Positions 6,902 through 25,000 of a stretch of DNA of 38,749 nucleotides are shown here, piece by piece. Position 1 is the first letter of the stretch, and every line of letters begins with the position of its first letter. Source of the stretch: Nocardiopsis listeri (lineage in GTDB: Bacteria > Actinomycetota > Actinomycetes > Streptosporangiales > Streptosporangiaceae). Made by a program: the position numbers and the translations under genes. The notes below the pieces were generated by a model. That model did no database searches, had not been told where the DNA came from, and saw only the letters and a list, made by a program, of their open reading frames with translations. The stretch covers positions 1 through 38,749 of the forward strand of contig NZ_DYZD01000300.1 in assembly GCF_020741345.1 (NCBI RefSeq), in the 5' to 3' direction.

Positions 6902-7306
6902 CAGACACACAGCGAGCAAACATACCACTCAGCCGGACCGACGCCTATGCCATGGGAATGCACAATGAATTACCCGAAACCGGATTCGCGAACCCCTTGC
7001 CCCCAGGGGAAGCCGGAGCACCAGCGGTCCCACCAATGCCGGAAGCGAGGACGCGCCGGCCATTGTGCGAAACCTGATCACACCCGACTTGAACTGCGTC
7101 TCCTCACCGAAAGTGCCCTTCGTCGATAACGGACGTACGGGTGATTCGACCTCGAGCCGCGCCCGGCACCCGCGTCGCTGCGCGGAGCCACCGACATCCG
7201 CCCCTAGAGTGGTGCAGATCACAATCACCGGAGGGGTCGACCAAGCCGCTCTCCCGGCACACGCGGGCTTCCCGCACCCACCGAAGAGGTTCGACCCACG
7301 ACAGTC

Positions 7307-7335
7307 GGGGAATCTTGACGTGGACCGACGCGTTA
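7307..7335 (+). promoter_or_regulatory. SigR (thiol-stress ECF sigma) type promoter of rbpA
   Basis: GGGGAAT (7307-7313) is followed after exactly 18 bases by GTTA (7332-7335). This matches the Streptomyces SigR consensus GGAAT-N18-GTT. Transcription would start near 7342, about 35 bases before the rbpA ATG. rbpA is an established SigR target in Streptomyces coelicolor, which supports the call. Confidence 0.75.
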
Positions 7336-7376
7336 CACCCCGCGAGACCGCACGAGCGCCTGGAGGCACCCACACG

Positions 7377-7760
7377 ATGGCCGAGCGAGCACTTCGCGGC
7401 ACCCGGCTCGGGGCGACGAGCTACGAGAACGACCGCAACACCGACCTGGCTCCCCGGCAGGAAGTCACCTACGACTGCACACGGGGCCACCGCTTCTCGG
7501 TCACCTTCGCGACCGAGGCGGAGATCCCCGGCGAATGGGAATGCCGCTTCTGCGGCGACCGAGCCCTTCGCCGAGACGGCAACGGCGAGGAGCCCAAGAA
7601 CACCAAACCGGTGCGAACGCACTGGGACATGCTGCTCGAACGGCGCAGCATGGAGGACCTCGAGGAGGTTCTCGCCGAACGCCTGGAACTGCTCCGCGCC
7701 CGCCGCCGTGAAGAGGCGGCCAAGGTGGAGGAGATCGCCAAGCAGCGACAGAGCGCCTGA
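7377..7760 (+). CDS. rbpA: RNA polymerase-binding protein RbpA
   Basis: A 127-aa RbpA: a small actinobacterial transcription factor that binds the principal sigma factor and RNA polymerase, stabilises open complexes and contributes to basal rifampicin tolerance. The order is a basic N-terminal tail (MAERALRGTRLGA), a core domain with candidate zinc ligands Cys34, His38, Cys56 and Cys59, a basic linker, and the sigma-interaction helix pair (THWDMLLERRS...). The C-terminus is extended by a charged helix beyond typical RbpA, which explains the 127 aa against about 110-125. The ATG at 7377 follows GGAGG by ten bases and sits at the expected distance from the SigR-type promoter. Upstream in-frame codons do not resemble the family. 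Confidence 0.93.
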   Translation: MAERALRGTRLGATSYENDRNTDLAPRQEVTYDCTRGHRFSVTFATEAEIPGEWECRFCGDRALRRDGNGEEPKNTKPVRTHWDMLLERRSMEDLEEVLAERLELLRARRREEAAKVEEIAKQRQSA

Positions 7761-7769
7761 CACGACGCC

Positions 7770-7803
7770 ACGGGGGCGGTGGACCATGGTCCACCGCCCC
7801 CGT
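7770..7803. terminator. Bidirectional terminator between rbpA and the HAD phosphatase
   Basis: A perfect 34-base palindrome (17 bp per arm) centred on CCATGG, with arms beginning ACGGGGGCGGTGG. It lies between the rbpA stop (7760) and the stop of the convergent HAD gene (7815), so it serves both units. Confidence 0.85.
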
Positions 7804-7814
7804 CGTGTTCGTCC

Positions 7815-8618
7815 CTACTCCTGTTCGCCGAAGGGGTCGCCGGTCCTGCCCACCAGGTCCTTGACCGACCCGATCACCCGGGTGGGCCGGTACGGGAACT
7901 CCTCGGCGGTCTCCCGACCGGAGATGCCCGACAACACCAGCACGGTCTGCAGACCGGCCTCCAGGCCGCTGAGCACGTCGGTGTCCATCCGGTCGCCGAC
8001 CATGAGGGCGCTCTCCGAGTGCGCGCCGATCCGGCGCAGCGCCGAACGCATCATCAGCGGATTGGGCTTGCCCACGAAGTAGGGCCGGCGTCCGGTGGCC
8101 TTCTCGATGAGCGCCGCGACCGCGCCGGTGGCGGGCAGCGGCCCCTCCGCGCTGGGGCCGGTCTCGTCGGGGTTGGTGGCGATGAACCGGGCACCGTTGC
8201 GCACCAGACGGATCGCCCGCGTGATGGCCTCGAAGCTGTAGGTGCGGGTCTCCCCCAGCACCACGTAGTCGGGGTCGCGTTCGGTCATCACGTAGCCGAC
8301 GTTGTGCAGCGCGGTGGTCAGACCGGACTCACCCACGACGTAGGCCGAACCGCCGGGCCGCTGGGTCTGCAGGAACTGGGCGGTGGCGAGCGCCGAGGTC
8401 CAGATCGACTCCTCCGGGATGTCCAGCCCCGTGTTGAGCAGTCGAGCCCGCAGGTCGCGCGGGGTGTAGATGGAGTTGTTCGTCAACACCATGAACGGGG
8501 TCCCCTGCTCGCGCAGCTCGGCTATGAGCGTGTCGGCCCCGGGGATCAGGTGCTCCTCGCGTACGAGCACGCCGTCCATGTCGAAAAGGTAGTTCCACTC
8601 GTTGCTCACAGGCACCAT
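7815..8618 (-). CDS. HAD-superfamily IIA hydrolase, NagD-like phosphatase
   Basis: A 267-aa cytosolic phosphatase of the NagD / p-nitrophenylphosphatase group. Motif I is FDMDGVL (nucleophile Asp13, acid/base Asp15), motif II VLTNNS, motif III Lys within GKPNP, and motif IV GDRMDTD; all catalytic residues are present. The large C2-type cap between motifs II and III marks subclass IIA. Physiological substrates of this family are sugar or nucleotide monophosphates; the exact one is unknown. It is co-directional with the SCO1664 and DUF3090 genes 70 bases upstream and could be the last gene of that operon. Start ATG at 8618; a GTG at 8609 is an alternative. Confidence 0.88.
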
Positions 8619-8688
8619 TGTGCCGGTGCCCGACTGTGGAACACCATTCCTACCCCCCGGTAACGAGCAATGAACGACTTGATGCTGC

Positions 8689-9465
8689 TCACACGGGCGG
8701 CCAGGGGACGGAGGGCCAATCGGGGGCCGGGTAGGGGTGGATGCGGTGATGGACGAGCAGATCCACCCTGGCGCGTACCGCGTAGGCCTCCGGACCGGTC
8801 AGGTGTCGGGCCAGTTCCATCGAGAGCGGATCCTCGGCGTCGTGCAGCCGGGCGCTCAACCGCGTCAGGGCCGCCAGGGCCTCATCGGTGAGGGGCCGTC
8901 CCTGCCACTGCCACAGCACGGTGCGCAGTTTGTAGTCCTCGGCGAAGGAGACCCCGTGGTCGCATCCGTACAGGTGTCCGCCGGGTCCGGGCAGCAGGTG
9001 GCCGATCTTGCGGTCGGAGTTGTTGATCACCGCGTCCAGCACAGCCATCCGACGCAGGCCCGGGTGGTCGGTGCGCCTGGACAGCTCGACCAGGTCGACG
9101 GTGGTGTCACCGTGCACCCACAACTGGACCATGCCCTCGCCGTAGGGGCCGTCACGGTGCACGGTCGGCGGCACCACGGACCAGCCCAACGCCTCGGAGA
9201 CCGCGTAGGCGGACACCTCGCGACCGGCCAGGGTGCCGTCGGGGAAGTCCCACAGGGGCCGCTCCCCCGCCACCGGCTTGTACACGCAGGCCGCCGAACG
9301 ATCACCGTCGGAGATCGTGCAGTACAGGGTGGTGTTGGAGGCCGCGGTCAGGCGGCCCCGCACCGTCAGGTCGCCCCTATGAAGCAGGTCGACGCCCTCG
9401 GCGGGGTCGATCCCGTCGAAGTCTGCGGAGGTCGGCCCGCCCTCGGTGGTGTCGTCGGCGTGCAC
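8689..9465 (-). CDS. SCO1664 family protein (PI3/4-kinase-like fold)
   Basis: A 258-aa member of the actinobacterial SCO1664 family. Conserved family segments are seen: [19 protein letters not shown] (nucleotide-binding lysine), [13 protein letters not shown], the catalytic-like [14 protein letters not shown] and [11 protein letters not shown], reminiscent of the HxxN and DxG loops of lipid or atypical kinases. The function is unknown; the family travels with DUF3090 and the MSMEG_4193 phosphatase near mycothiol or undecaprenyl genes. The GTG start at 9465 lies 3 bases after the DUF3090 stop and has no clear Shine-Dalgarno, so translation is probably coupled. Confidence 0.9.
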
Positions 9466-9468
9466 GGC

Positions 9469-10059
9469 TCAGACGAGTCGGTCCGGGCGGTAGCCGTTCT
9501 GGCGAGCGCAGATGTGACCGGCCGGGTCCAGGGGGCGACCGCACAGGGGGCAGTCGGGGCGCCCGGCGGAGACCACCTTCAGGGCGCGGCCCGCGAACGA
9601 GCGCGCCTCGCCGGGGGTGAGGTAGACGCGCAGAACGTCACGGTGGGCCGGGGCCTCCTCGGCGAAGACCTCCAGCTCCTCATCTTCTTCGTCCTCGTCC
9701 TCGACCAGTTCGTCGGGGCCGGACTCGTCGAGCTCCTGGGCCTCGATGATCACGCGGGCCGCCTCGGCGTCCCAGGCCAGGGCCAGGGTGCCCACACGGA
9801 AGTCCTGTTCGATGGGCTGTTCCAGGGGGCCGTCGTCCTCGGGGGCGGTCTCGTCACCGGGCGGGGCACCGAAACGGCGGTGCACCTCTTCCAGCAATTC
9901 CTCGATGCGGCCGGCCAGGGCCTCCACCTGAGCCTTCTCCAACACGACGCTGGTTATGCGACCCTCGCCCACCGCTTGGAGGAAGAAGGTGCGTTCCCCA
10001 GGCTGTCCCACGGTCCCCGCGATGAACCGTTCCGGTGGGTTGAACTGAAAGACGGGCAT
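9469..10059 (-). CDS. DUF3090 family protein
   Basis: A 196-aa protein of the DUF3090 (TIGR03847) family. It opens with the family hallmark MPVFQFNPPERFIAGTVGQPG and FFLQA, then a helical mid-section, a strongly acidic stretch (DELVEDEDEEDEELE), and a C-terminal zinc-ribbon-like CPLCGRPLD...HIC. Its function is not known. The ATG at 10059 is chosen because it starts the conserved block and has AAGG upstream. It is directly followed by SCO1664. In most actinobacteria the gene just upstream is the MSMEG_4193-type phosphatase; here that gene is 9 kb away (19150-19896), with an accessory cluster in between. Confidence 0.92.
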   Translation of the reverse strand: MPVFQFNPPERFIAGTVGQPGERTFFLQAVGEGRITSVVLEKAQVEALAGRIEELLEEVHRRFGAPPGDETAPEDDGPLEQPIEQDFRVGTLALAWDAEAARVIIEAQELDESGPDELVEDEDEEDEELEVFAEEAPAHRDVLRVYLTPGEARSFAGRALKVVSAGRPDCPLCGRPLDPAGHICARQNGYRPDRLV

Positions 10060-10110
10060 GGTTGCAACCTTACGGGATATCGGTGACACGGGACGATTCG
10101 CCCGCCCCGG

Positions 10111-11100
10111 TCAGGTGATGACCCGCTGGACCTCCAGCATGCGTTCCACCGTGCGGAACCCGAAGAGGTCGTTGACCGCACGCATCGGGGTGTTGGCGGG
10201 ATCCACCCAGGTACGGACCCACTTCGCCTCGGGAACGTCCCTGGAGAGCGCTTGGAGGTTGCGCCGCTTGAGCGCCACACCCAACCTGTTGCCCCGATGG
10301 GCGCGCATCACCAACGTGTCGTCCTGGTAGACCTCACCCTCTCCTTCCGTCGGGACCATCATCAGGCTGTACCCGGACCACTCCCCCGACCCGGCCCGCG
10401 CGACGGAGACGATGGTGGTGTACCCCTGGTCGGCACGGCGCAGGTCCTCCTTCCGGATCCGGTCGGCGTCCCACACCTGCGGTTCGGTGTCGAGCCCGCC
10501 CGTGGGCACGTCACGCTCCATCGCGGTGCGCATCCGCGCGTAGTCCTCCAGCAGTTCCTCCGGACAAGGACCCGTCCAGGTGAGCGTTCGGTGTTCACCG
10601 GTCACCTCGGGCAGGGCGGCCAACCGTTGCTCCGGGACGGGAAGGTCCAGCACCTGGTAGTCCTCCTCGTGCACGACGTCGAAGCCATGGGACCGGGCGA
10701 ACAGGGCACCCGGCCAAGCGTCCGGGTCGCACCCCCCGGGGACGTAGACCTCACCGGTCGCGGTGGTGCGCCCCTCCTCTTCCATGACCTTCGTGGCCAG
10801 TTCGAGCAGTCGTCCGCCCAGGCCCCTGCCCCGGTGTTCCGGGACCACCGAGACGTCCACCTCGGCCAGGTGCCGGTTCTCCAGGTCCGGAAGGTCGATG
10901 AGGAGGGTGCCCACGGTGCGTTCGTCCTCCACCGCGGCGTACAACCTGTGGTGCCGGTCCTCGCGCGGGGCGACCATCCCCTTGAGGTCGGGAAAGCCCA
11001 TAACGGCGGCCTCCGCGCGGCCGGCCGTCGCCCCCTCGACCAGGGCCGTGTGCCAGGCACGCAGGGCGGACTCGTCCGTGGCGTCGATCGGGTTGATCAT
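10111..11100 (-). CDS. Tandem GNAT-domain acetyltransferase
   Basis: A 329-aa protein with two GNAT folds, as in mycothiol synthase (MshD) and related double-GNAT enzymes. The N-terminal domain carries an acetyl-CoA loop RGRGLGGRLLELA (motif A). The C-terminal domain has AHRGNRLGVALKRRNLQAL and the typical N-x-x-M-x-x-V-N-x-x-x-G-F-R end (NTPMRAVNDLFGF). It is the last gene of the accessory operon, 33 bases after the MFS gene. It could acetylate the cluster product or a toxic intermediate (self-resistance or tailoring) (inference). The substrate is unknown. ATG at 11100. Confidence 0.85.
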   Translation of the reverse strand: MINPIDATDESALRAWHTALVEGATAGRAEAAVMGFPDLKGMVAPREDRHHRLYAAVEDERTVGTLLIDLPDLENRHLAEVDVSVVPEHRGRGLGGRLLELATKVMEEEGRTTATGEVYVPGGCDPDAWPGALFARSHGFDVVHEEDYQVLDLPVPEQRLAALPEVTGEHRTLTWTGPCPEELLEDYARMRTAMERDVPTGGLDTEPQVWDADRIRKEDLRRADQGYTTIVSVARAGSGEWSGYSLMMVPTEGEGEVYQDDTLVMRAHRGNRLGVALKRRNLQALSRDVPEAKWVRTWVDPANTPMRAVNDLFGFRTVERMLEVQRVIT

Positions 11101-11133
11101 CGCGGTGTACTCATTCCTTCGTGATCGGTCGGT

Positions 11134-12441
11134 TCAGGCGGGTTCGGAAGCCTTGCCGGCTCCCTCCGCGACGGGTTCACCGAAGCCGCGCAACCGCGCA
11201 GAGGTCATGGCCAGTAGCGCCGCGGCCACCCCCAGCAGGCCCGCGAAGACCAGGAAGAGGGCGGTGGCGCCGGTCTTTTCCTCACCCAGCAAGGTCACCA
11301 TGGTGTCCGCGCCGGTATCGGTGAACAGCGGTGTCAGTACGTAGTCCACGACCGGGCCGGCGATGAGCAGGCCCAGGGGCAGGGACGACTGCGCGAGGAG
11401 GCGACGGGCCCCGAAGACGCGGCCCTGTTGCCGCTCCGGCACGTGGGACTGCCAGATCGCCTGGTAGGCGGAGTTGACCGCAGGAAGCACGGCACCGGCC
11501 ACCAGGGAGGAGGCGATCCACAGCCACGGGGTCCAGGACAGACCCAGCAACAGGGGTCCGGCGACCGAACCGATCGCCATGCCGCCCAGCACGAGGGTCA
11601 TCCGTTGGAACCGGTCGCCCACCGCACTGACGACCAGGGCTCCCAGCACTCCGCCCGCGCCTCCGGCCGCCAGGACCACCCCCAGGAGAGCCTGGTCGTC
11701 CCCGCTGCGCAACATGATCAACGGGGTGGTCAGGGCGTAGGAGATCGCCCCGGAGAAGTTGAGCACGAAGAACAGCAGGAGTAGGAGCACCAGGGGCCGG
11801 CTGCGGAAGATGTAGGTGAACCCGAACAGCAGGTCCGCCCGGAACACCACCCACGAACGCCGCTGCTCTCCCTCGGCCACGGCCGGTCGAGGGGTGCGGA
11901 CCATCAGCAGGACCAGCGCGGCGAAGACGAAGGTCACCAGGTCCAGGAGCAGGATCATCGACAGGTCGGTCAGCGCCAGCAGGACACCCCCCAGGGCGGG
12001 GGCGAGGATCTCCGACCCGGGCGCGGCCAGACTGATCATTCCGTTGGCGCGAACCAGCCGTTCCTCCACCACCAGGAGTGGGACCAACGCCATGTAGGCC
12101 ACCAGGTGCAGGGACTCCATCACCCCTTCGAACACGGCGATGACGTACAGGTGCCAGATCTCCAGGTTCCCCGTGAGATAGAGCGTCAGAACGGTGGACG
12201 TGGTGATGGCGAGGGCGCCGTCACCGACCAGGACGGCCACCCGTGGCCCGATGCGGTCCACGAGTGCACCGGCGATCGGGGCCATGGCCAGGCCGGGGGC
12301 CAGGGAGAGCAGTGTGAGCATCGCGAACAGGGTCGCCGAACCGGATTCCGCCCACACCCACAGGGTGATGGCGAACCAGGCCGTGCCCGAGCCGATCGCC
12401 GACATGAGCTGGGTCGACCACACCAGGGAGAAACGTCGCAT
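11134..12441 (-). CDS. MFS efflux transporter
   Basis: A 435-aa major facilitator protein with about 12 hydrophobic segments, beginning FSLVWSTQLMSAIGSGTAWFAI. It carries the DRIGPR loop motif between helices 2 and 3 and a second DRFQR loop in the C-terminal half. It resembles the MacB/TetV-like drug-efflux branch (MFS_3). The start is 6 bases after the 2OG oxygenase stop and 33 bases precede the GNAT gene, so it belongs to the accessory operon and is the only exporter there. No peptidase-containing ABC transporter is present, so any leader removal must be done by another protein. Confidence 0.88.
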   Translation of the reverse strand: MRRFSLVWSTQLMSAIGSGTAWFAITLWVWAESGSATLFAMLTLLSLAPGLAMAPIAGALVDRIGPRVAVLVGDGALAITTSTVLTLYLTGNLEIWHLYVIAVFEGVMESLHLVAYMALVPLLVVEERLVRANGMISLAAPGSEILAPALGGVLLALTDLSMILLLDLVTFVFAALVLLMVRTPRPAVAEGEQRRSWVVFRADLLFGFTYIFRSRPLVLLLLLFFVLNFSGAISYALTTPLIMLRSGDDQALLGVVLAAGGAGGVLGALVVSAVGDRFQRMTLVLGGMAIGSVAGPLLLGLSWTPWLWIASSLVAGAVLPAVNSAYQAIWQSHVPERQQGRVFGARRLLAQSSLPLGLLIAGPVVDYVLTPLFTDTGADTMVTLLGEEKTGATALFLVFAGLLGVAAALLAMTSARLRGFGEPVAEGAGKASEPA

Positions 12442-12447
12442 ACCGCC

Positions 12448-13002
12448 CTAGACCGCCTCGCCGGAGAGGTCGTCGCCACGATGCGGCAACGGCGGGATCG
12501 TCACGAGGGTGTAGCGCTCCTCGCAGGCCACGGGATCGACCCAGTGCCAGGCCTGGGGGTCGTGCTCGACGAAGGTGCCGGCACGGTCGGGGACGAACAC
12601 CATGGTCTCGGGGTCGTGCTGGGCGTTGAGCCCATCCGTCCCCGAAGTGGTGAGCATGTACAGGCCCTGGCGCAGTGAGTCCCGGTGCGGCAGGACGTAG
12701 TCTCCCCGGTCGTACCTGTTGACCTGAACGTAGTAGTCCCTCTTCGGCGTCCCCTCGGGGGTGATGGCGGCGAAGATCGCCGCCCTGAGGTCCTCGGGCA
12801 TCCAGGCGGACTGGAGGACGTGATAGCGGTCGTCGTCCTCGTACTCGGAGTCCCGGTAGGGGTCGAAGGGGTCTGTTCCGGCCGGCCGGGGCGGGGCCGC
12901 GGGGTCGGGGTGATCGGCGAACAGGTGTCGGTAGCGGCGGGCGAGGGAGACGATCCCCGCGCAGTCGGCCACCACGTCCGGAACCACGGTCAACGGCCTC
13001 AT
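12448..13002 (-). CDS. 2-oxoglutarate/Fe(II)-dependent oxygenase-like protein
   Basis: A 184-aa compact double-stranded beta-helix protein. The facial triad is visible as His106-x-Asp108 (LPHRDS) and His153 (WHWVDPV), with Arg163 (ERYTLV) placed to bind 2-oxoglutarate. The preceding strand is YYVQVNRYDRGDYV. Such small oxygenases hydroxylate or desaturate amino acids or peptides. The ATG at 13002 overlaps the stop of the paralogous upstream gene (ATGA), so the two are probably made in equal amounts. Within the cluster it would oxidise the peptide or an amino-acid unit (inference). Confidence 0.8.
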   Translation of the reverse strand: MRPLTVVPDVVADCAGIVSLARRYRHLFADHPDPAAPPRPAGTDPFDPYRDSEYEDDDRYHVLQSAWMPEDLRAAIFAAITPEGTPKRDYYVQVNRYDRGDYVLPHRDSLRQGLYMLTTSGTDGLNAQHDPETMVFVPDRAGTFVEHDPQAWHWVDPVACEERYTLVTIPPLPHRGDDLSGEAV

Positions 13003-13466
13003 CGCACTCCCATCACAACGCTGTACCTGGGCGCACCTCGCACGGGACTCACCCACGCCCACGACCCCGGCGGCAGGAGCAGACCCGTGCCCACCCGATC
13101 CAGGACACGCTCGAAGCGCCCTCCGATCCAGGCGGTGACCCCGTCGACCTCGGAGTCGCTCAGGGGGAAGGTCAGCTCCCAGTCACCGGCCACGGTGTCG
13201 CCCACCCGACGGGGCAGGGTGAAATCGCCGACGTCGTGACGTTGCACCCGAACCGTCGCCGGGTCGGGTGTGCCGGGCAGTGACGAGGCGACGGCGACGA
13301 GGCGATCACGCAGACCCGGCTGGTCGACGGCCAGGTCGGTGTACCGGGACCGGGCCCCGGTGAGGTCCTGCGGTGCCGTGACCGGTAGACCTTCCAGCGC
13401 CGCTCTCACCTCCTGCGGCAGGGTGTGGGCGACGGGTACCTCCGTCGGCCCTTCGGTGAGGATCAT
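12999..13466 (-). CDS. Degenerate 2OG-oxygenase paralogue lacking iron ligands
   Basis: A 155-aa protein whose C-terminal half aligns by eye with its downstream neighbour: RVQRHDVGDFTLPRRV corresponds to QVNRYDRGDYVLPHRD, and WAWVSP...RYSVV to WHWVDP...RYTLV. In these positions the ligands are replaced: Arg86 for His106, Val88 for Asp108 and Ala137 for His153, while Arg147 is kept. It therefore cannot bind Fe(II) in the usual way. It may be a structural or substrate-binding partner of the active oxygenase (inference). ATG at 13466 with AAGGAG upstream; the stop overlaps the next start by four bases. Confidence 0.75.
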   Translation of the reverse strand: MILTEGPTEVPVAHTLPQEVRAALEGLPVTAPQDLTGARSRYTDLAVDQPGLRDRLVAVASSLPGTPDPATVRVQRHDVGDFTLPRRVGDTVAGDWELTFPLSDSEVDGVTAWIGGRFERVLDRVGTGLLLPPGSWAWVSPVRGAPRYSVVMGVR

Positions 13467-13477
13467 CGGTTTCTCCT

Positions 13478-14986
13478 TCACTCCAGATCGGTCAGGTCGA
13501 CGGGGACGGCGTCGGGGTCGGAACGGCGCAGGGAATCGATGTCGGGGTGGGCCGCCACCTCCATCAACAGCTCCACCACCGCCGCGCGCCCCCACCCGGC
13601 CCGTGCGCCCATCGCCACCTTGAACAGGCCCCGCCCTTCCTTGAGGGAGGGGATGATGCACTCGAAGCGGTGGGCGCGGAAACCGAAGCTCGACCCGTGC
13701 GAGAAGGGCAGTCCTCGACGACGCGCCTGGGAACGCAACACACCGAGCAACAGTCCGTGGTGCTCCAGCGTGTCCTCACGCAGGTGGCACACGACGAACG
13801 GAGCCTGCGCCCAAGGGGCGGCGGGGCCCTCGGCCAGCGAGGGATGGGCGATGCGGGTGAAGAGTCGTCCCGGCCCCGCCAGGTCGGCGAGCACTCGCGC
13901 GGTCAGCGCGTTGTTGCGCAGGACCGCGAGCGCGTGGTCACGGGCGGCCGCCCGATCCAGGACGAACGGGGCGCTGAGCACCGAGAGGGCTTCCAGGGAC
14001 AGACCGGATCCCACGACGGTGCGCATCTTGCGCAGGTACGTGGCCAGATCGGCGGCGGGGGGAAGTGCCGGATCGGACCGGCGTGCGTACAGGGAGGCCA
14101 CCCCCAGGTTGCCGAGTTCGAGCCCTCGCTGGTCGAGTTTGAGCCCGGAGCGGACCTCGACGACCAGGACGCCCGGGTCGCCGACGGCCTCCACGAACCG
14201 TTCCCTCGGCCACACCGGCGAGACGAGGGTGGAGTCCACCACGACCAGGCCGGGACGGCTCCCCCGCCGCCCCCGCCAGGCGCCCAGCAGCGCCGGCAGG
14301 TCGAGTGCGTCCAGTTCCCACTCGTAGCGCACGGGTTCGATGAACAGCACGTCCACCTCACCTGTGAGGAGACAGGACCGCAGTTCCTCTTGGGTGTCGG
14401 CGCGTCGACAGCGCAGGCCGTCGTCGGAGACCAGGTCGAAAAGGACTCCGGTCTCGTAGTAGGCACCCCACATCAGCAGGTTCAAAGGGCGGTCGGCGGT
14501 CTGCCGGATCAGACTCCGGTAGCACTGGAGGAGCCCGGCGATGGACGCCATACCGCTGGAGTACACGACGTGCGCCACCTCGTGGTGATCGAGCTCGGCG
14601 TCCTGGGCCGCGAGCCGTTCCTCCAGGGAGTGGCATTCGATGTTGCGTTCGTAGCTGTGCGTGGAGGGAGGCCCGAAGGGCAACGTCATCGGGGTTCCCA
14701 GGGGCGGTGACTTGTAGCGCGGATCCGTGAATCCGTGGGCGTGGCGGATCCACATCACCCGCAGGTCCGCCTCCGCCCGGTCCATCTCCGCCTCTGCCTC
14801 GGGTCCCTGCCGTCCGGTCAGGGAGGTGACCCGTTCACGCCACCCTCGGATCGACTCGGTCGGATTCCCCTCCGCGTCCGGGGGAAAGAGCGCGTCGGCC
14901 AGCCCGAGCAGGGCGGTGACGTCGTCGTGTGCGGTCATCGGGGCCGCGCCCGTGCGTCCCTCGGTCGCGTCCATGGTCCCGGTCAT
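13478..14986 (-). CDS. Fold-type I PLP-dependent enzyme (Cys/Met-metabolism-like)
   Basis: A 502-aa protein with the layout of the cystathionine-synthase/lyase group. After about 130 N-terminal residues comes a PLP-phosphate loop VVYSSGMASI (141-150), then a stacking aromatic segment (WGAYYET), an IEP strand, Asp251 in VVVDSTL to pair with the PLP nitrogen, and the Schiff-base Lys283 in RSGLKLDQ. A C-terminal small domain follows. Reactions in this family are beta/gamma eliminations or replacements; the actual substrate is unknown. The ATG at 14986 overlaps the upstream stop (ATGA), and the protein is longer than the 380-400 aa typical of the group. It is in the middle of the accessory operon. 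Confidence 0.75.
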   Translation of the reverse strand: MTGTMDATEGRTGAAPMTAHDDVTALLGLADALFPPDAEGNPTESIRGWRERVTSLTGRQGPEAEAEMDRAEADLRVMWIRHAHGFTDPRYKSPPLGTPMTLPFGPPSTHSYERNIECHSLEERLAAQDAELDHHEVAHVVYSSGMASIAGLLQCYRSLIRQTADRPLNLLMWGAYYETGVLFDLVSDDGLRCRRADTQEELRSCLLTGEVDVLFIEPVRYEWELDALDLPALLGAWRGRRGSRPGLVVVDSTLVSPVWPRERFVEAVGDPGVLVVEVRSGLKLDQRGLELGNLGVASLYARRSDPALPPAADLATYLRKMRTVVGSGLSLEALSVLSAPFVLDRAAARDHALAVLRNNALTARVLADLAGPGRLFTRIAHPSLAEGPAAPWAQAPFVVCHLREDTLEHHGLLLGVLRSQARRRGLPFSHGSSFGFRAHRFECIIPSLKEGRGLFKVAMGARAGWGRAAVVELLMEVAAHPDIDSLRRSDPDAVPVDLTDLE

Positions 14987-16104
14987 GTGTTCCGCCCTCC
15001 TTCGGCGCGCACGACCTCCTGATGCGGCGGGCCCCATCCGTGCAGGTCGCGCATCATGCTCGCGGTGTAGGCCCCGGACGCGTTGAACACCAGACGGTCC
15101 CCGGGCCGAGGGTCGGACAGCGACACCTCCTCGGCCAACACGTCGTTCTCGTAGCAGGTCACCCCACCGATCAGGTGGGGACGCCCCGGCCCGTCCCGTT
15201 CGGGCAGGCGCGCCACCACCCTCGGGCTCCCCCAGGTGAACAGGTTCCATCCGGAGGCGTCGGCCACGGCGTATCCACGGCCGTCGGGGAACCCATCGAC
15301 GGAGCGCAGGCGGACCACGAGGTAGCCGGCCAGCGCGGTCGTCAACATGCCGGGTTCCAGGAGCACGCGCACGGGAGCACCGGCGAGACGTTCGGCGACG
15401 CGCTTCCAGGCCCGCCGGGCCTGCTGCCGGTCGGTGTACAGCGTGGTCAGACCGCCGCCCAGGTTGAGTTCGCGCACTTGTGGGAAGGCGCGCAGGCAGG
15501 TGGTCAGGGCCGACGTCAGCAGGTCGGCCCGGTCGGGTGTCCCGATCTCGCCGCTGTGCACGTGCAGTCGTACGACGCGTGTGTCGGTCCCGGCCAGGAG
15601 CCGGTGGAGTTCGGGGTCGGCGGGATCGACACCGAACCTGCTCGCGCGGCGCCCGGAGGTCCGGTCCTGTTCGGCCATGGGCACGCGCAGACGCAGTCCG
15701 ATCTCCCGTGGCGAGGGTCGGGTCTGCAGGAGTGAGCGCAGCTGGTCGACGCCATCGACGTCGACCAAGGCCCCCTGCTCGGCCATGGCGGCGAGCCGGT
15801 CGCCGGTCAGTCCGGGCCCGGTGACGCTGATCGGGTCCATGCCGGCTTCCCGGGCCGCGCGGTACTCGGCGGGTGAGGCGACGTCCGCGCCCACGCCGAG
15901 GTCGGCCAGGTGGCGCAGCAACGGCGGGAAGCGGTTGGCCTTGAGGGCGAACAGCAGGACGCTCTTCGGGAACGGAGCGGTGTCCTCGCGCAGTTCCCGG
16001 ACCGTGGCCGTGACCGCGTCCAGGTCGTACAGGAGTGCGGGGGTGGTGACGGTCCGGGCGGACCGCAGGATCGCCTCGCCGGGTGTGGAGGAGCCCATCG
16101 TCAC
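14983..16104 (-). CDS. Alanine-racemase-fold PLP decarboxylase-like protein (DapDC/ODC type), copy 1
   Basis: A 373-aa fold-type III PLP protein. The N-terminal TIM barrel carries the Schiff-base Lys55 in FALKANRFP, followed by GVGADVASPAEY, SRFGVDP, HVHSGE, a glycine-rich LNLGGGL and EPG. The C-terminal beta domain holds GVTCYENDVL and GAYT. In ornithine and diaminopimelate decarboxylases the corresponding C-(D/E)SxD segment contributes Cys and Asp across the dimer interface. Here the Cys is kept and the context is changed to CYEND. The start is a GTG at 16104 overlapping the arginase-like stop (GTGA), or an ATG two codons in. A paralogue is encoded at 17345-18547. Confidence 0.82.
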   Translation of the reverse strand: MTMGSSTPGEAILRSARTVTTPALLYDLDAVTATVRELREDTAPFPKSVLLFALKANRFPPLLRHLADLGVGADVASPAEYRAAREAGMDPISVTGPGLTGDRLAAMAEQGALVDVDGVDQLRSLLQTRPSPREIGLRLRVPMAEQDRTSGRRASRFGVDPADPELHRLLAGTDTRVVRLHVHSGEIGTPDRADLLTSALTTCLRAFPQVRELNLGGGLTTLYTDRQQARRAWKRVAERLAGAPVRVLLEPGMLTTALAGYLVVRLRSVDGFPDGRGYAVADASGWNLFTWGSPRVVARLPERDGPGRPHLIGGVTCYENDVLAEEVSLSDPRPGDRLVFNASGAYTASMMRDLHGWGPPHQEVVRAEGGRNT

Positions 16105-17348
16105 GCACCCCCTTCCCGATGGCCGATGGCCGAGTCCAGGGCCCGCAACAGCAGGTCGGCGACGATCAGCCCGTCCGTCTCCCCCTCATGGGGCAGGAAC
16201 TCGACCACGTCGATCCCGACGATGCGTCGGGCCGAGCACAGGTCGGTCAACAACCCGACCAGTTCGGCGTGGGTGAAACCTCCGGGCAGGGGCGTGCCCG
16301 TGGCGGAGAGCACCGAGGGGTCCAGCGCGTCCACGTCGATGGTCAGGTGGTAGGGCAGGGAGTCGGGGAGTTCGGCGAGGATCTCGCCGAGCGGGGTGCT
16401 CAGCGCCGACCTTCCGGGCCAGCGGCGCAGTGTGTCGTCCGGCCGTGCGGGCGGATCCTCCAGTTGGCGCAGGCCGAACTGGGCGAGGCGGACCACCCGA
16501 GGATCGCCTACCACCCAGTCCATGACGTTTCCGTGGTGGCAGTGGAGTTCGGCGTCGTCGTGGCGGGGACGGGCGTAGTCGCCGTGGGCGTCGATGTGCA
16601 GGACGCCGAGATCGCCGTGGACCTCGGCCAGACCTCGGACGATGGGCAACGTGACGGAGTGGTCGCCGCCCAGGATCACCGGGAGGCGGCCGTGCCCGCT
16701 GAGGCGGCCCACCACGTTCTCCAGCACCGACCAGGTGGGCCCGGCGGAACGGTGCACGTTGGTGGTCACGTCGCCGATGTCCGCCAGACGTACTCCGGCC
16801 AACACACGTCTCCCGGTCACCGGGTCCACGGCACCGGACGGGCCGTCGACGGTGTCCCGGTAGCGGAACAGGGCGCCTCCGGTACGTCGTAACTGGGCGG
16901 GACCGAACCTGCTGCCGGGCCGGTGCGAGGCCCCCAGGTCGTAGGGCATCCCGAGGAAGACGACATCGCAGGACTCACCGCGCAGTGCCTCGGCCAGGGT
17001 GAGGACCGGGGCGCCGAACATGCCGCCTCGCCCGGCGGGGGTGGGGACTCCGTCCGGGTCGTGTCGTCTTATGAGGCCTCGTTCTCCCAGGGCCGTGACC
17101 AGGGCGCGCAGGTGGGATCGGTCGGTTCCTTCGCCTTGGGCAAGGGTGGCCAGGGTGCGGGGAACGGCGAAGGCGGCGAGCAGGTCGGCGGTGACCGGAC
17201 CGACCTCCAGTTCCCACCCCTCACGGGTGTGCCACACGGTGGTGCGACCGTCCTGCGAGCCCCGCAGGGCCAGCAGGGGTTCGGTGGCCAAGAGGGTGTC
17301 GTCGGTGATCGGAGGGGCCTGCATCGCCCCGGGGCCGGAGTCGTTCAC
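16101..17348 (-). CDS. Agmatinase/arginase-family ureohydrolase with N-terminal RRE/PqqD-like domain
   Basis: A 415-aa two-domain protein. Residues about 115-410 form a ureohydrolase with every manganese ligand in place: GGDH (His230), DAHGD (Asp253, His255, Asp257) and the DVDALDP motif (Asp338, Asp340), plus GIDVVEF (Glu383). The family hydrolyses guanidino groups to amine and urea. Residues about 15-97 are not part of known arginases. They form a strand-rich start (TTVWHTREGWELEVG) and then a winged-helix pattern (PVTADLLAAF...HLRALVTALGERGLIRR) like the PqqD/RiPP-recognition fold. This suggests leader-guided action on a peptide arginine. GTG start at 17348, overlapping the upstream stop. 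The domain junction uses the rare codons ATA-AGA (residues 93-94). Confidence 0.82.
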   Translation of the reverse strand: MNDSGPGAMQAPPITDDTLLATEPLLALRGSQDGRTTVWHTREGWELEVGPVTADLLAAFAVPRTLATLAQGEGTDRSHLRALVTALGERGLIRRHDPDGVPTPAGRGGMFGAPVLTLAEALRGESCDVVFLGMPYDLGASHRPGSRFGPAQLRRTGGALFRYRDTVDGPSGAVDPVTGRRVLAGVRLADIGDVTTNVHRSAGPTWSVLENVVGRLSGHGRLPVILGGDHSVTLPIVRGLAEVHGDLGVLHIDAHGDYARPRHDDAELHCHHGNVMDWVVGDPRVVRLAQFGLRQLEDPPARPDDTLRRWPGRSALSTPLGEILAELPDSLPYHLTIDVDALDPSVLSATGTPLPGGFTHAELVGLLTDLCSARRIVGIDVVEFLPHEGETDGLIVADLLLRALDSAIGHREGGA

Positions 17349-18547
17349 GCGGTGGCCCCCGCGGTGGTGAGCGCGGCTTCGGCGTCGATCATGTGCTCAC
17401 CGTCGAAGAGGTGTTCACGTGGCGGGGGGATGCGGTTGAACCACCGGGCGTTGGTGATGGTGTAGGCGCCGGTCGCGGTGATGACCAGGCGGTCGCCCGC
17501 ACGGCAGTGGGGCACCTCCAGGGTGGTGCGAGCGGCGGTGGGGGTGGCGCCGAAGAAGTCGTTCTCGTAGAGGGTGCAGCCTGCCAGGAGGGCGGGAGCG
17601 CCGGGCCGACGTCCGTCCAGGGACAGGACCTGGGGCCGGTTGTGCCAGGGGGCGAGGTTCCAGGCGGAGGCGTCCAGGGTCACGACGCGGGTGTCGAGGA
17701 CCGGATGGTGCTCCTCCACCGACCGCACCCTGGTGAGGAGATACCCGTAGGGGGTGAGCAGCGCACCTCCGGGCTCGAAGCGCAGGGAGATCGAGCGACC
17801 GGTACGTTCGCGCCAGCCCGTGACGAGCGCGGCGACGTCGCCGAACGCGTCGATGGCGCTCGCCCGATCCCGGTAGAGGTGGAAGAACCCGCCTCCGAGG
17901 TCGATGGTGTGCACCTCGGGCAGGTGCTCGGCGACGGTGAGGAGGTAGCGGGTCTTGTAACGCAGGGAGTCCGGGGTCATCTGGCCGGTGTGGACGTGCA
18001 GCCGGGTGGGCCTCAGCCGATGTCGTTCGAGCACCCGTGTGAGTTCGGGGTCGGCGGGGCGGACTCCGAAGCGGCTGTCTCCGGCGAAGGTCGCCGTGTC
18101 CTCCAGGGCCTCGGGGAGGTCCACTCGCACACGTATCCCCACCTCGTCCCCGGGGCGATGCCGTCCGTAGGAGTCGAGTTGATCGAGGGAATCACAGTCC
18201 AGGGTGATCCCTCGCGCGGCCAGGGCGTCGAAGTCGGTTTCGGTGAAAACGGGGCCCGTCGCGGAGATCTCGGCGAAGCCGGCGTTCACGGCCAGGTCGA
18301 GTTCTCCGGGGGAGGCGACGTCGCAGCCGAGTCCGAGCGCGGCCATCTCCCCGAGCACGGCGGGGGTGTGGCACGCCTTGAGTGCCAGGTTGAGTCCTGC
18401 GTCGGGGATGAGGGCGACGTCGTGGCGCATCGCCTCCACACCCGCACGAATACCGGGCAGGTCGTAGATCAGCGCGGGGGTGTCGAGATCCTCGGCGAGC
18501 GCGAAGAGGCGTTCGCTCGGTGGGGTGAACAGGGGGGCTGGTGGCAT
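17345..18547 (-). CDS. Alanine-racemase-fold PLP decarboxylase-like protein, copy 2
   Basis: A 400-aa paralogue of the protein at 14983-16104, with Lys57 (NLALKACH) as Schiff-base lysine, CDVASPGEL, SRFGVRPADPEL, HVHTGQM, IDLGGGFF, EPGG and the C-terminal GCTLYENDFF and GAYT. The residue matching the catalytic Cys of ornithine/diaminopimelate decarboxylase is Leu here, whereas copy 1 keeps Cys. These enzymes build active sites from two chains, so the copies could form a heterodimer with one full site (inference). ATG at 18547 with GAAGGA upstream; the frame continues upstream but only as an off-frame shadow of the precursor gene. It is the first enzyme gene after the putative precursor. Confidence 0.82.
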   Translation of the reverse strand: MPPAPLFTPPSERLFALAEDLDTPALIYDLPGIRAGVEAMRHDVALIPDAGLNLALKACHTPAVLGEMAALGLGCDVASPGELDLAVNAGFAEISATGPVFTETDFDALAARGITLDCDSLDQLDSYGRHRPGDEVGIRVRVDLPEALEDTATFAGDSRFGVRPADPELTRVLERHRLRPTRLHVHTGQMTPDSLRYKTRYLLTVAEHLPEVHTIDLGGGFFHLYRDRASAIDAFGDVAALVTGWRERTGRSISLRFEPGGALLTPYGYLLTRVRSVEEHHPVLDTRVVTLDASAWNLAPWHNRPQVLSLDGRRPGAPALLAGCTLYENDFFGATPTAARTTLEVPHCRAGDRLVITATGAYTITNARWFNRIPPPREHLFDGEHMIDAEAALTTAGATA

Positions 18548-18574
18548 CGACGATCCTTCACCGGGGATAGGACC

Positions 18575-18602
18575 CGTCGGGCCGGTGGCGGCCGGCCCGA
18601 CG
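18575..18602 (-). promoter_or_regulatory. Strong hairpin between precursor gene and first enzyme gene
   Basis: A perfect 11-bp inverted repeat CGTCGGGCCGG / CCGGCCCGACG with a 6-base loop. It lies 33 bases after the precursor stop and about 27 bases before the next start. There is no T-run on the minus strand. Its position fits an attenuator or mRNA-end stabiliser that would keep the short precursor transcript more abundant than the enzyme mRNA, as in many RiPP operons. Confidence 0.6.
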
Positions 18603-18635
18603 GACGAGGTTCCCAGGGACTCGGAGAAGCTCGGA

Positions 18636-18818
18636 CTAGTTGGCGCGGGGGCGGCTGCCGCCGAGGGTGCCGAGGTCCATGCTGATCTCGCGGACGTCTG
18701 CACCGCCGATCTCACGGATGGACTCGTCGATGACGGCCTGTTCGCTCCAGGCCTCGCCGGTGAAGTTGGCGTCGAACTCCTTTTCGAGGTCGGCCAGCTT
18801 CGTCTGCAAAGTGGGCAT
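18636..18818 (-). CDS. Putative RiPP precursor peptide (60 aa)
   Basis: A 60-aa acidic peptide of unknown family, first gene of the accessory operon. The N-terminal 50 residues are helical and rich in Asp/Glu (LQTKLADLEKEFDANF, then AVIDESIREIGGADV), like a leader. The C-terminus is MDLGTLGG followed by SRPRAN, so a double-Gly at 53-54 precedes a six-residue tail with Arg56 and Arg58. It has no Cys and a single Trp24. AAAGGA lies about 7 bases before the ATG. The RRE-like domain fused to the arginase and the modifying enzymes downstream make a ribosomal precursor the best reading. A small non-substrate partner protein is the alternative. The core boundary is inferred only from the Gly-Gly. 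Confidence 0.72.
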   Translation of the reverse strand: MPTLQTKLADLEKEFDANFTGEAWSEQAVIDESIREIGGADVREISMDLGTLGGSRPRAN

Positions 18819-19149
18819 AGTTCGTCCTTTCGCCTAGAAGGGTGGATTCGCGGACGTAACCACCTCATGGCGCCTTACCGGTGGGCGGCGTCGAACGCAG
18901 TGCCCACTGTAAGAATCGACTTTTCCCAGGACAACACGGTGACCAATTGCGGCCACAATGAAACCCAGACCCAGTTGAAAAAACCATGAACAGAATTCAT
19001 GAATAAGTGCGACATAGCACAGAAAAGCATTATGGCTTTCCCGCCGCCTTATCCCTCGAAACCGCCACGAACAAAGTCAGGGGGTAATAAGGGGCAGGGT
19101 CCAGGGGGAGCGAACGGTGTCCTGGCCGCCCGGGAGGCGTCCGTGTGCC
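18819..19149. other. Upstream region of the RiPP-like operon
   Basis: 331 bases between the phosphatase stop and the precursor start, less GC-rich than its surroundings (18,900-19,090). It contains the candidate promoter at 18906-18934 and an inverted repeat CATGAA-N5-TTCATG (18985-19001) that could be a regulator site. No regulator gene lies nearby. It is also one edge of the insertion into the conserved phosphatase-DUF3090 pair. No convincing gene is seen. Confidence 0.5.
18906..18934 (-). promoter_or_regulatory. Candidate sigma-70 type promoter of the RiPP-like operon
   Basis: Reading the minus strand, TTGTCC (18934-18929) and TACAGT (18911-18906) are separated by 17 bases. Each matches the -35/-10 consensus at four of six positions. 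The predicted start lies near 18899, about 80 bases before the precursor ATG. Confidence 0.4.
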
Positions 19150-22101: not shown

Positions 22102-24369
22102 TCAATCGGCCAGGGGCGGGATCGGGAAGTTGTGGTCGAAGACCCGCTCCGGGTCGTACTGGGCCTTGATCGCCCGCAGCCTCCCCAGGGTGGGTTCGGG
22201 GAAGGCCTGGGCCAGCACCTCGGGTCCGGTGCGGGTGTCGAAGCTCAGGTACATGCCCTGGAGTTCGCCCTCCAGTGCCGCCCAACGCGGATCCAACCGG
22301 TCGGCGCTCCGACCGAGCGCGGCCACCGAGAAGTTCGCCGAACGGTGGGCGTAGGCGGTGGTCTCGCGCGCGACGTCGTTGACCGCCCCGCCGACCTGAC
22401 GGAACTGGGTGAAGTAGGAGTCCCCCGAGGCGACCATCCCCGCGATGATCTCGGCGGTGGTGTCGGTGATCGTGCCCACCAGTCCTGAACGGGAGACGGG
22501 GACCCCGGCGCCCTGGTGCGGGCCCTGGTGCGGAACGAGCAGCGCCGAGTAGGGCGCCTGCTGCGCGCGCTGGTCCAGGACCGGTCCGGCCTTCAGGAAG
22601 GGTTCGAGCGCGGTGACGGCCGCGTCGGTGTCGTCGTCCGCGTACACCACCATCGCCTGCGCGATCGGCCCCTGGCCCGCGCGTCCCCCGCCCAGGGTGA
22701 GGAAGGCGGTGACCTCGCGCGGCGCGGCGGTGGCGATCTCCCCCCAGGCGCGAAGGAACGCGGCGGTGGCCGCGGCGTCGTAGGCGAACTGTCCCAGCAC
22801 CACGGTGTTCACGTGGGCGGCCTCGATCTCCACGGAGGTGACCACGCCCATGTTCGCGCCCGCGCCACGGACCGCCCAGAACAGGTCGGGGTGGTGGTCG
22901 GCGTCCACCCGCAGGAGCCGGCCGTCGGCGGTGACCAGTTCGGCGGCGACGACGTTGTCGATGGTGAGCCCGTGGGAGCGGGACATGTAGCCGACACCGC
23001 CGGTGGTGGCGAGTCCGCCCACGCCCACTCCCCCGTGGTCGCCGGAGCTGATGGCGAGCCCGTGCGCGCCGAGCCGATCGGCGACGTCGCCCCAGCGGGC
23101 CCCGGCGCCCAGGCGCACCAGGCCGGATCCGGAGTCGAGGACCTCGATCCCGTTCATCCGGCCCAGGTCGATGATCACGCCACCATCACTGGTGGAGGCG
23201 CCGCTGATCCCGTGTCCGCCGGACCGCACGTTGAGGGTCACGTCCTGTTCGCGGGCGTAGGCCAGGGCCTCGGCGACCCGGGCCGGCTCGTCGGGGCGCA
23301 GGACCAGGCCGGGTCGACCGTTCTGCATGTAGCCGTGCCGCAGGCCTCGGTAGTCCTTGTCGCCGGGCTCGACGGCGCTCTCGTGCAGGGACTCGGGCAC
23401 GCCGTCGTAGTCGATGCCGGGGCGGCGGGCGCCGAGCGCGGTGGCGGACCTGGCCGGCCCGGTGGGCGTTCCGGCGGTGGCGCGTTCGCGGTCCACGGCC
23501 TCGCGCAGGGCGGGGGCCACCTCCGCACCGAAGATCTCGATGGTGCGCGGGTCGTCGGTGCCCAGGATGAAGGTGGCCACACCGTTCTCGACCGCCAGGG
23601 GCAGGAGCTGCTCGACCCATTGTTCGGGCGGGCCCTGAAGGAAGCCGCGATCGACGGGCGAGAAGGCGACCCCGGAGAGGTTGAGCAGGCGTCGGATCTG
23701 TCGGGGGTGGCGTCCGGCCGCCTCGGCGGCGTCGTCGATGATCCGGTTGGACTCGGGCAGGTCGGCCGGGTCCAGGTAGCCCAGGCTCGGCAGCCAGCCG
23801 TCGGCCTTGGCACCGACCAGGCGGAGCATGCGGGGTTTGTAGGCGCCCAGCCAGATGCCGATGTCGTGGTGGGGGCGGGGGCCGCGCTTCATTCCGTGGA
23901 CGGAGTAGTGCTCGCCCTGGGTGCGCAGTCCACCGCGGGCGTCGGTATCCCATACCTCACGGATGAGGTCGATGGCCTCGGAGAGTGCGTCCACCGACTG
24001 TCCGGGGGTGCGGCGCCGACCGCCCATGCCGTGGATCCCGTCCCAGAAGGCGCCCGCCCCCAGGCCGAGTTCGAAGCGCCCCTTGGAGAGCAGGTCCAGG
24101 CCGGCGGCGGCGCGGGCCAGGACCGCCGGGGGGCGAAGGGGCAGATTGAGGACGTTGCCCGTCACGCGCAGGCGTTCCGTACGGGCGGCGACCCAGCTCA
24201 GCAGGGTCCAGGTATCGAGGAAGTCAGGGTTGTAGGGGTGGTCCTGGAAGCTCGCCAGGTCCAGACCGGCGGCCTCGGTCGCTTCGGCCAGCCCGACCGC
24301 GTGTTCGGGGTCCTGGGCGGTCGGCGTGATGAAGGTGCCGAACTCCAGGCGGTGTCCGTAGTCGGTCAT
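22102..24369 (-). CDS. Fusion: luciferase-like monooxygenase + BBE-type FAD-linked oxidase
   Basis: A 755-aa two-domain flavoprotein. Residues 1-300 form a bacterial-luciferase-like (LLM class, F420 or FMN dependent) TIM barrel, with ELGLGAGAFWDGI and PHHDIGIWLGAYKPRML. Residues about 320-755 form a vanillyl-alcohol-oxidase/BBE-type FAD enzyme with the PP-loop VRSGGHGISG, where His386 is placed for covalent FAD attachment, then GVGVGGLATTGGVGYMSRSHGL and a C-terminal berberine-bridge segment (YDPERVFDHNFPI). The two halves would pass a substrate or reduced flavin between them (inference). ATG at 24369 with GAGGAG upstream. A MarR gene is divergent, and the shared spacer carries an operator repeat. 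Confidence 0.88.
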   Translation of the reverse strand: MTDYGHRLEFGTFITPTAQDPEHAVGLAEATEAAGLDLASFQDHPYNPDFLDTWTLLSWVAARTERLRVTGNVLNLPLRPPAVLARAAAGLDLLSKGRFELGLGAGAFWDGIHGMGGRRRTPGQSVDALSEAIDLIREVWDTDARGGLRTQGEHYSVHGMKRGPRPHHDIGIWLGAYKPRMLRLVGAKADGWLPSLGYLDPADLPESNRIIDDAAEAAGRHPRQIRRLLNLSGVAFSPVDRGFLQGPPEQWVEQLLPLAVENGVATFILGTDDPRTIEIFGAEVAPALREAVDRERATAGTPTGPARSATALGARRPGIDYDGVPESLHESAVEPGDKDYRGLRHGYMQNGRPGLVLRPDEPARVAEALAYAREQDVTLNVRSGGHGISGASTSDGGVIIDLGRMNGIEVLDSGSGLVRLGAGARWGDVADRLGAHGLAISSGDHGGVGVGGLATTGGVGYMSRSHGLTIDNVVAAELVTADGRLLRVDADHHPDLFWAVRGAGANMGVVTSVEIEAAHVNTVVLGQFAYDAAATAAFLRAWGEIATAAPREVTAFLTLGGGRAGQGPIAQAMVVYADDDTDAAVTALEPFLKAGPVLDQRAQQAPYSALLVPHQGPHQGAGVPVSRSGLVGTITDTTAEIIAGMVASGDSYFTQFRQVGGAVNDVARETTAYAHRSANFSVAALGRSADRLDPRWAALEGELQGMYLSFDTRTGPEVLAQAFPEPTLGRLRAIKAQYDPERVFDHNFPIPPLAD

Positions 24370-24401
24370 GGCTTCTCCTCGGGCGCGACGTGACCATAAT
24401 C

Positions 24402-24448
24402 GTTTGTGGGACAAACAATGTTCCTTTCAACATATCTGATGGACAAAC
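24402..24448. promoter_or_regulatory. Candidate MarR operator: GTTTGT-N3-ACAAAC plus a second ACAAAC
   Basis: The 100-base divergent spacer contains the perfect inverted repeat GTTTGT-GGG-ACAAAC (24402-24416) and a further GGACAAAC (half-site 24443-24448). The two ACAAAC half-sites are exactly 32 bases apart, about three helical turns. The site is positioned to control both the flavoenzyme and the MarR gene. Confidence 0.6.
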
Positions 24449-24469: not shown

Positions 24470-25000
24470 ATGAGCGCCAGCACCTCGGAGGACCTTCCCG
24501 GACCCGACCTCGGGTGGTCGCTGGCCGTCCTGCTCCGTCGCTGGCACGAGCACGTCGAACAGGCCCTGTCCGACCTGCCGCACGGCAGCCGGGGGTTCCA
24601 CGTGCTCACCACGGCCGCCGCGGGCGATCCCCCCACCCAGGCCGCGCTCGCCGAACGACTCCTCATCGACCGCAGTGTCATGACCTATCTGCTCGACGAC
24701 CTGGAGGCCGCCGATCTGGTCCGGCGCCGGGTCGATCCCAAGGACCGCCGGGTGCGTCGGGTCTGCCCCACCGACCACGGGCTCTCCGTACTGCGACGGG
24801 CCGAGGAACTGGTCGCGCACGTGGAGGACCGGATGCTGGGCGGGCTCCCCCGGGCACAACGCGAGCTCTTCCGGGACTCCGCCGCGATCGCCGCGGACGC
24901 GATCCGGCTCAGTGCCCCCGAGACCGACCCCTGCGAGGCGGTCCTTCGGGTGGTCGCCCCAGATCGAGAGAACCCCCGGACCGCCTCCGACCACGCCTGA
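24470..25000 (+). CDS. MarR-family transcriptional regulator
   Basis: A 176-aa winged-helix regulator. The recognition helix region is TQAALAERLLIDRSVMTYLLDDLEAADLVRRRV, followed by the beta-wing DPKDRRVRRVCPTDHG, the MarR signature, and C-terminal dimerisation helices. A tail of about 30 residues beyond the usual fold is present. It is divergent from the LLM-FAD fusion gene and likely represses it and itself until a phenolic or other small ligand binds (family knowledge plus context). ATG at 24470; no strong Shine-Dalgarno, so a leaderless or weakly initiated mRNA is possible. Confidence 0.88.
   Translation: MSASTSEDLPGPDLGWSLAVLLRRWHEHVEQALSDLPHGSRGFHVLTTAAAGDPPTQAALAERLLIDRSVMTYLLDDLEAADLVRRRVDPKDRRVRRVCPTDHGLSVLRRAEELVAHVEDRMLGGLPRAQRELFRDSAAIAADAIRLSAPETDPCEAVLRVVAPDRENPRTASDHA

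Follow-up and report, generated by a model that had tools for sequence, protein, structure and literature searches.

A conserved GGSRPR peptide encoded beside arginase-like and pyridoxal phosphate-dependent enzymes in Nocardiopsis listeri suggests a new family of ribosomal peptides that may carry polyamine side chains

Among ribosomally synthesized and post-translationally modified peptides (RiPPs), ornithine is made in the enteropeptins by KgrD, an arginase of the PF00491 family and not of PF12640, as described in the accessible part of PMC12703449. Here we describe a nine-gene island (genes A to I) in a stretch of 38,749 nucleotides from Nocardiopsis listeri (contig NZ_DYZD01000300.1; the whole stretch is called the window), headed by the small gene A, whose product together with its partner enzymes suggests a new RiPP family as judged from sequence comparison. 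Its arginase-like protein C also belongs to PF00491. Enteropeptins, however, need a prior thiomorpholine and an Fe-S methyltransferase, whereas the island has pyridoxal 5'-phosphate (PLP) enzymes instead, and a Pfam and NCBIfam scan of its nine proteins gave no radical-SAM match. The OspR-type peptide arginases (PF12640; landornamide, selidamides and DD(I/V)LF precursors) share with the island the conversion of Arg to Orn on the core, proposed here; they differ in that C matches PF00491, and no precursor type named in the accessible part of PMC12703449 resembles GGSRPR. In microcin C (MccA-F), aminopropylation is described as the action of MccD followed by decarboxylation by MccE, the reverse order not being ruled out (available excerpt of PMC12250964). 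A short peptide recurs in the island, and the PLP decarboxylase (in MccE the N-terminal domain) and GNAT self-immunity have candidate counterparts there by family matches, with an arginase and a cystathionine gamma-synthase (CGS)-like enzyme, E, standing there instead, and the same scan of the nine proteins found no ThiF/MccB-like or MccD-like protein. In muraymycin biosynthesis, the PLP-dependent Mur24 transfers an aminocarboxypropyl group to an amine and the Mur23 decarboxylase then leaves an aminopropyl group (partial texts of PMC10491745 and PMC9814697); according to the same texts the substrate is a nucleoside and Mur24 is similar to 1-aminocyclopropane-1-carboxylate synthase, while E is CGS-like and its proposed substrate is a peptide. 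Edeine, paenilamicin and odilorhabdin are cationic peptide-type antibiotics with GNAT self-resistance, provided by EdeQ, by the tandem GNAT PamZ and by OatA, respectively, and paenilamicin bears 4,3-spermidine, as far as the accessible literature on them goes; they are made by non-ribosomal peptide synthetases and polyketide synthases, as opposed to the ribosomal origin proposed here. Saskemycin was also considered as a match and rejected, since the accessible part of PMC12637814 describes an unrelated glycolipid. A parallel with LolC/LolD of the loline pathway was likewise set aside, as the texts found on it described no chemistry. In the open-licence literature on arginase, PLP, aminocarboxypropyl and aminopropyl-ornithine RiPPs, no report of the GGSRPR family was found.

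Gene A and the entire operon are read from the - strand; the + strand of 18636-18818 encodes another peptide. Translation of the reverse complement of this segment yields MPTLQTKLADLEKEFDANFTGEAWSEQAVIDESIREIGGADVREISMDLGTLGGSRPRAN followed by a stop, a product of 60 residues with an ATG start, which agrees with the acidic, Cys-free peptide proposed when the window was read from its letters without database searches (the sequence-only reading). The same reading had placed A first in its operon behind a strong ribosome-binding site, and this is borne out by the gene order and by AAAGGA lying directly 5' of the start codon. The nine genes are tightly packed, with B beginning 88 nt downstream of A and with 4-nt overlaps at the B-C, C-D and D-E junctions.

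Five clusters were compared: that of the window, those of Nocardiopsis coralli (L006), Nonomuraea jabiensis (L007) and Thermoactinospora rubra (L008, also L004), found by searching with E, and that of the Mammaliicoccus sciuri plasmid pWHA07 (L009), found by a plasmid search. The enzyme genes are preceded in all five by an open reading frame (ORF) with the same tail, ending as ...INMDLGTIGGSRPRAS, ...INMDLVPLGGSRPRPN and ...INMDLVPLGGSRPRSN in the other actinobacterial clusters. The M. sciuri precursor, missing from the gene table of the plasmid, has 27 residues, MTENIRNATPSISLDLDLMGGSRPRLK, against 60 in the actinobacteria. GGSRPR is identical throughout and only the final two residues differ (AN, AS, PN, SN, LK); conservation covers the tail MDL/LDL..GGSRPR, and towards the N-terminus the leader is divergent or missing. 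Loss of the ORF in related clusters, or lack of a leader/core pattern, had been named beforehand as the outcomes that would speak against a precursor; instead the ORF was found in every cluster with its tail kept and its N-terminal part variable. The codons for GGSRPR are not the same between clusters, and the dN/dS values of the precursor (NG86) are 0.070/0.216 for the window against N. coralli and 0.068/0.443 for T. rubra against Nonomuraea. The family thus defined spans two phyla, being chromosomal in Actinomycetota and plasmid-borne in the one Bacillota case. Because the GGSRPR-xx tail is conserved, the leader is variable and the neighbouring enzyme set is fixed, sequence evidence makes A almost certainly a RiPP precursor. 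That it would be a chance or regulatory small ORF has little to recommend it beyond the richness of this GC-rich DNA in short ORFs, and we consider it very improbable: the ORF, its tail and its place are the same in 5/5 clusters, it is under purifying selection, and when the 400 nt 5' of the M. sciuri enzymes were mononucleotide-shuffled 20,000 times, GGSRPR never appeared in a forward frame.

The fixed neighbours of the precursor are B, C, D and E, all present in each of the five clusters, in the order A-B-C-D-E in M. sciuri and A-D-F-G-B-C-E in T. rubra and Nonomuraea. C matches PF00491 with an E-value of 1.4e-50, this being its sole Pfam family at E up to 1, with PF12640 not matched. Its metal-ligand motifs GGDHS, DAHxD and D[VI]D are invariant in 5/5 clusters, and its nearest solved relatives are a guanidinobutyrase and agmatinases, with proclavaminate amidinohydrolase ranking sixth. 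An AlphaFold model of C (pLDDT 43) was relied on for the arginase fold only. A PkwA kinase match to its N-terminal extension (E 3.7e-4), in which no stretch passed by itself, was judged spurious. B and D form a decarboxylase-like pair, whose profile finds diaminopimelate (DAP) decarboxylase as nearest, then carboxynorspermidine decarboxylase, BtrK and others, with N-citrylornithine decarboxylase lower. K57, H184 and E258 (B numbering), which we take to be PLP-contact positions, are invariant in 11 aligned rows, among them a protein from an Enterococcus faecalis plasmid cluster described below. The loop Cys is kept in D (CYExD) and missing from B (LYEND) in 5/5 clusters. By BLAST, M. sciuri B scores 251-273 bits against the four B proteins and 145-155 against D proteins, and M. 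sciuri D scores 166-183 bits against D proteins and 122-152 against B proteins, which argues that two distinct decarboxylase-like genes travelled together; as the decarboxylase tree left the M. sciuri rows unplaced on long branches, their pairing rests on these scores and the loop motifs.

E is safely a fold type I PLP enzyme and likely a member of the CGS family. The PF01053 cut-off of 27 bits is not reached by the T. rubra (15.6), M. sciuri (25, E 8.3e-6) or E. faecalis (26.5) homologs. At the same time, a profile built from five E rows finds yeast cystathionine gamma-lyase (E 3.2e-4) with the YxR, SSG and D positions aligned, and Foldseek with the E model places methionine gamma-lyases on top (E 4.9e-12), but with a TM of 0.30.

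From this gene set a pathway can be proposed in which C would hydrolyse both core arginines to ornithine, a step that the sequence data make probable. E would then activate S-adenosylmethionine or an O-acyl- or phospho-homoserine as a vinylglycine-PLP species and move a 3-amino-3-carboxypropyl group onto the ornithine amine, from which D and B would remove the carboxylate, so that one or both arginine positions would end up with a spermidine-like side chain, as 3-aminopropyl-ornithine. Fold-III decarboxylases require a free alpha-amino acid. Since a peptide-internal residue has no free alpha-amino/carboxyl pair, the appended group is the substrate proposed for them, and this sequence of reactions is the simplest in which an arginase, a gamma-substitution-type PLP enzyme and a pair of decarboxylases could all serve a single peptide. 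Mur24/Mur23 and MccD/MccE are precedents for the transfer and decarboxylation, and KgrD is the one precedent for a PF00491 arginase working on a RiPP. With two arginines in the core and a pair of decarboxylases, the chemistry may take place at two sites or in two rounds. Such aminopropylation of the core stands, on the sequences at hand, a little short of even odds. In actinobacteria the oxygenase-like pair G/F might oxidise the product; a protease from outside the island would cleave it, probably after GG, an MFS or ABC exporter would remove it, and the GNAT would N-acetylate a product amine and so shield the producer. The product could be a small polycationic antibiotic acting like edeine, paenilamicin or odilorhabdin. 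To the pathway as a whole, from arginase through aminocarboxypropyl transfer, decarboxylation, oxidation and cleavage to export and acetylation, we assign a probability of about 0.45, and its reading as a ribosomal counterpart of edeine and paenilamicin, with arginines turned into spermidine-like side chains in a six-residue core and with precursors down to 27 residues, is slightly more tentative still. The suggestion of the sequence-only reading that a very short Arg-Pro-Arg core suits an arginase-dependent pathway thus holds for the two conserved core arginines beside an arginase and is incomplete in that the decarboxylase-like pair and the CGS-like enzyme are equally universal.

Several observations weigh against this aminopropylation pathway. 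As the sequence-only reading had stated, the cluster encodes no recognizable peptidase, none having been found among the nine island proteins by Pfam or NCBIfam, of which E and F lack a Pfam match; the window copy of E, the proposed transferase, has no family assignment from Pfam. Structural rows from VIA rank aminotransferases first over the N-terminal half of the E model (pLDDT 64) and align the CGS family to it only at a root-mean-square deviation of about 14 A. B, without the loop Cys, may be no ordinary decarboxylase. The RiPP recognition element (RRE) that the sequence-only reading had attributed to the arginase was not recovered: no Pfam match to PqqD/RRE was obtained in six N-termini, one of them that of the E. 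faecalis ThiF protein, and the N-terminal extension of C gave only a weak profile match to the RPA32 winged helix (E 0.21). The ribosome as target is drawn from analogy with the named antibiotics and is doubtful. GNAT genes are frequent neighbours of many genes, and tblastn recognizes no likeness between the GNATs of one lineage and those of the other two.

One alternative keeps the ornithine RiPP and denies aminopropylation to B, D and E: for instance, E would make another gamma-substituted product or a C-C adduct and B would be oxidative or epimerising. CGS-family and fold-III PLP enzymes in general carry out many reactions, and the loop Cys is missing from B in every cluster; yet a decarboxylase-like pair beside a gamma-substitution-type PLP enzyme mirrors the logic of Mur24/Mur23 and MccD/MccE, and we regard this alternative as unlikely, albeit as the most serious of those considered. 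Considerably less probable is that B, C, D and E build a free polyamine-like small molecule, with the peptide serving only as carrier or operon regulator. Arginases or agmatinases, decarboxylases and PLP enzymes typify polyamine metabolism, and the closest solved relatives of C use free guanidino compounds, but GGSRPR is fixed over two phyla while the leader varies freely, and no amine-to-peptide ligase was found among the island proteins by Pfam or NCBIfam. Slightly lower still we rate the possibility that the core arginines stay and C targets a guanidino group elsewhere, with Ser, Pro or the C-terminus as the modified sites of the core; the oxygenase-like G could indeed act on Pro or Asn, but it is the two arginines that are invariant in 5/5 clusters and the last two residues that vary.

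If the aminopropylation pathway is true, polyamine side chains built on Arg would be a post-translational modification probably new to RiPPs, none of the literature searched reporting it for a RiPP; cationic pharmacophores like those of edeine and paenilamicin could be made ribosomally and re-coded by mutation of a short gene, the minimal pathway being a 27-residue precursor and four enzymes, and peptide engineering would gain candidates for PLP-dependent aminocarboxypropyl transferases and decarboxylases that act on peptides.

Table 1. Positions of the island, its genes and an RNA hairpin in the window
Feature	Description	Position	Strand	Remark
A	almost certain precursor peptide, 60 aa, C-terminus MDLGTLGG-SRPRAN	18636..18818	-	same ORF in 5/5 clusters
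Hairpin	RNA hairpin between A and B	18573..18604	-	13-bp stem, z -2.53
B	DAP/ornithine-decarboxylase-like PLP protein, fold type III, loop LYEND without the usual Cys	17345..18547	-	
C	ureohydrolase, arginase family PF00491, N-terminal extension of ~100 residues	16101..17348	-	
D	second DAP/ornithine-decarboxylase-like PLP protein, loop CYExD with Cys	14983..16104	-	
E	divergent CGS-like PLP enzyme, proposed 3-amino-3-carboxypropyl transferase	13478..14986	-	
F	G relative without HxD...H iron ligands	12999..13466	-	ligands missing in 4/4 actinobacterial clusters
G	2-oxoglutarate-Fe(II)-oxygenase-like protein with HxD...H	12448..13002	-	motif in 4/4 actinobacterial clusters
H	MFS exporter	11134..12441	-	family matches
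I	GNAT N-acetyltransferase, two GNAT regions, proposed self-resistance enzyme	10111..11100	-	
Island	whole island, genes A-I, 9,044 bp	10105..19148		missing at same site in close relative G113

The remaining genes of the island vary more between clusters (Table 1). G matches PF13640 below the cut-off (E 0.017), and F adjoins it in all four actinobacterial clusters, perhaps as a pseudo-enzyme partner subunit; in the M. sciuri cluster, no counterpart to F or G turned up among genes or ORFs. An exporter gene is present in 5/5 clusters, of the MFS type in four and of the ABC type in M. sciuri, and so is a GNAT gene. The window GNAT resembles the N. coralli copy and reaches only 26.9 bits by BLASTP against that of M. 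sciuri, and the T. rubra and Nonomuraea copies are 71% alike; since no likeness is recognizable across the three lineages, it seems that separate GNATs were taken up to meet the same need. Taken with the predicted polycation, the GNAT suggests self-resistance by acetylation, as in paenilamicin, odilorhabdin and edeine. Directly upstream of the precursor, T. rubra (L004, 3094-4053) and Nonomuraea (L007, 4041-5009) carry an APH-family phosphotransferase, 81% alike between the two, a possible second self-resistance gene. The strong hairpin 3' of A has comparable counterparts, different in sequence, at the same place in the three other actinobacterial clusters, making 4/4, and in M. sciuri there is none; it is a possible attenuator keeping the precursor in excess.

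The island lies between histidine phosphatase and DUF3090 genes. An alignment with G113 (L023), the closest relative, breaks off at window position 19149 and picks up again at 10104, G113 having 11 bp where the window has 9,044 bp. Among 30 loci from 31 genomes of the genus (G581 gave none), 28 have the two flanking genes separated by 50-1,207 bp, taken as the distance from one tblastn alignment to the next, and lack GNAT I and the MFS there, and the island stands between them in the window and N. coralli only. The N. coralli island, at the same site, is ~85% identical to that of the window, with flanks at 82-87%, which fits an old presence with loss in G113, independent gain being the alternative.

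Across 341 genomes of the GTDB family, the E profile gave strong matches in four (the window's own genome, N. coralli, Nonomuraea and T. rubra); weak partial matches in six further genomes of the family (E 1.7e-4 to 9.9e-4), and one in each of two other searches, were not counted as members. In a phylum sample it matched 1/396 genomes, the window's own. No E relatives were found in the phages collection or, searched twice, in viral_contigs, and the plasmid collection held those of M. sciuri and E. faecalis only. The M. sciuri arginase matched 453 plasmid records; among the matches listed are itself and 29 relatives at 26.5-32.7% identity, mostly annotated as agmatinase or unannotated. On the E. 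faecalis plasmid LR962333.1 (L010), 4300-12544 is an unannotated RiPP-like cluster of the ThiF type, in which a ThiF-family protein is accompanied by an E-like PLP protein, a decarboxylase-like protein, an MFS protein and a GNAT, preceded by two tiny ORFs (25 and 13 codons, seen by eye) that are candidate precursors; among its listed ORFs no arginase was seen. ThiF-like RiPP genes of Enterococcus and Streptococcus, according to a review, have decarboxylases, N-acetyltransferases and PLP enzymes nearby, and by its gene content the E. faecalis cluster links the combination of E with a decarboxylase to a broader range of peptide pathways. Elsewhere in the window, an ORF of 770 residues at 22102-24414 (-) fuses a luciferase-like monooxygenase domain with a FAD-binding/BBE oxidase domain, and a MarR regulator at 24470-25000 (+) is divergent from it.
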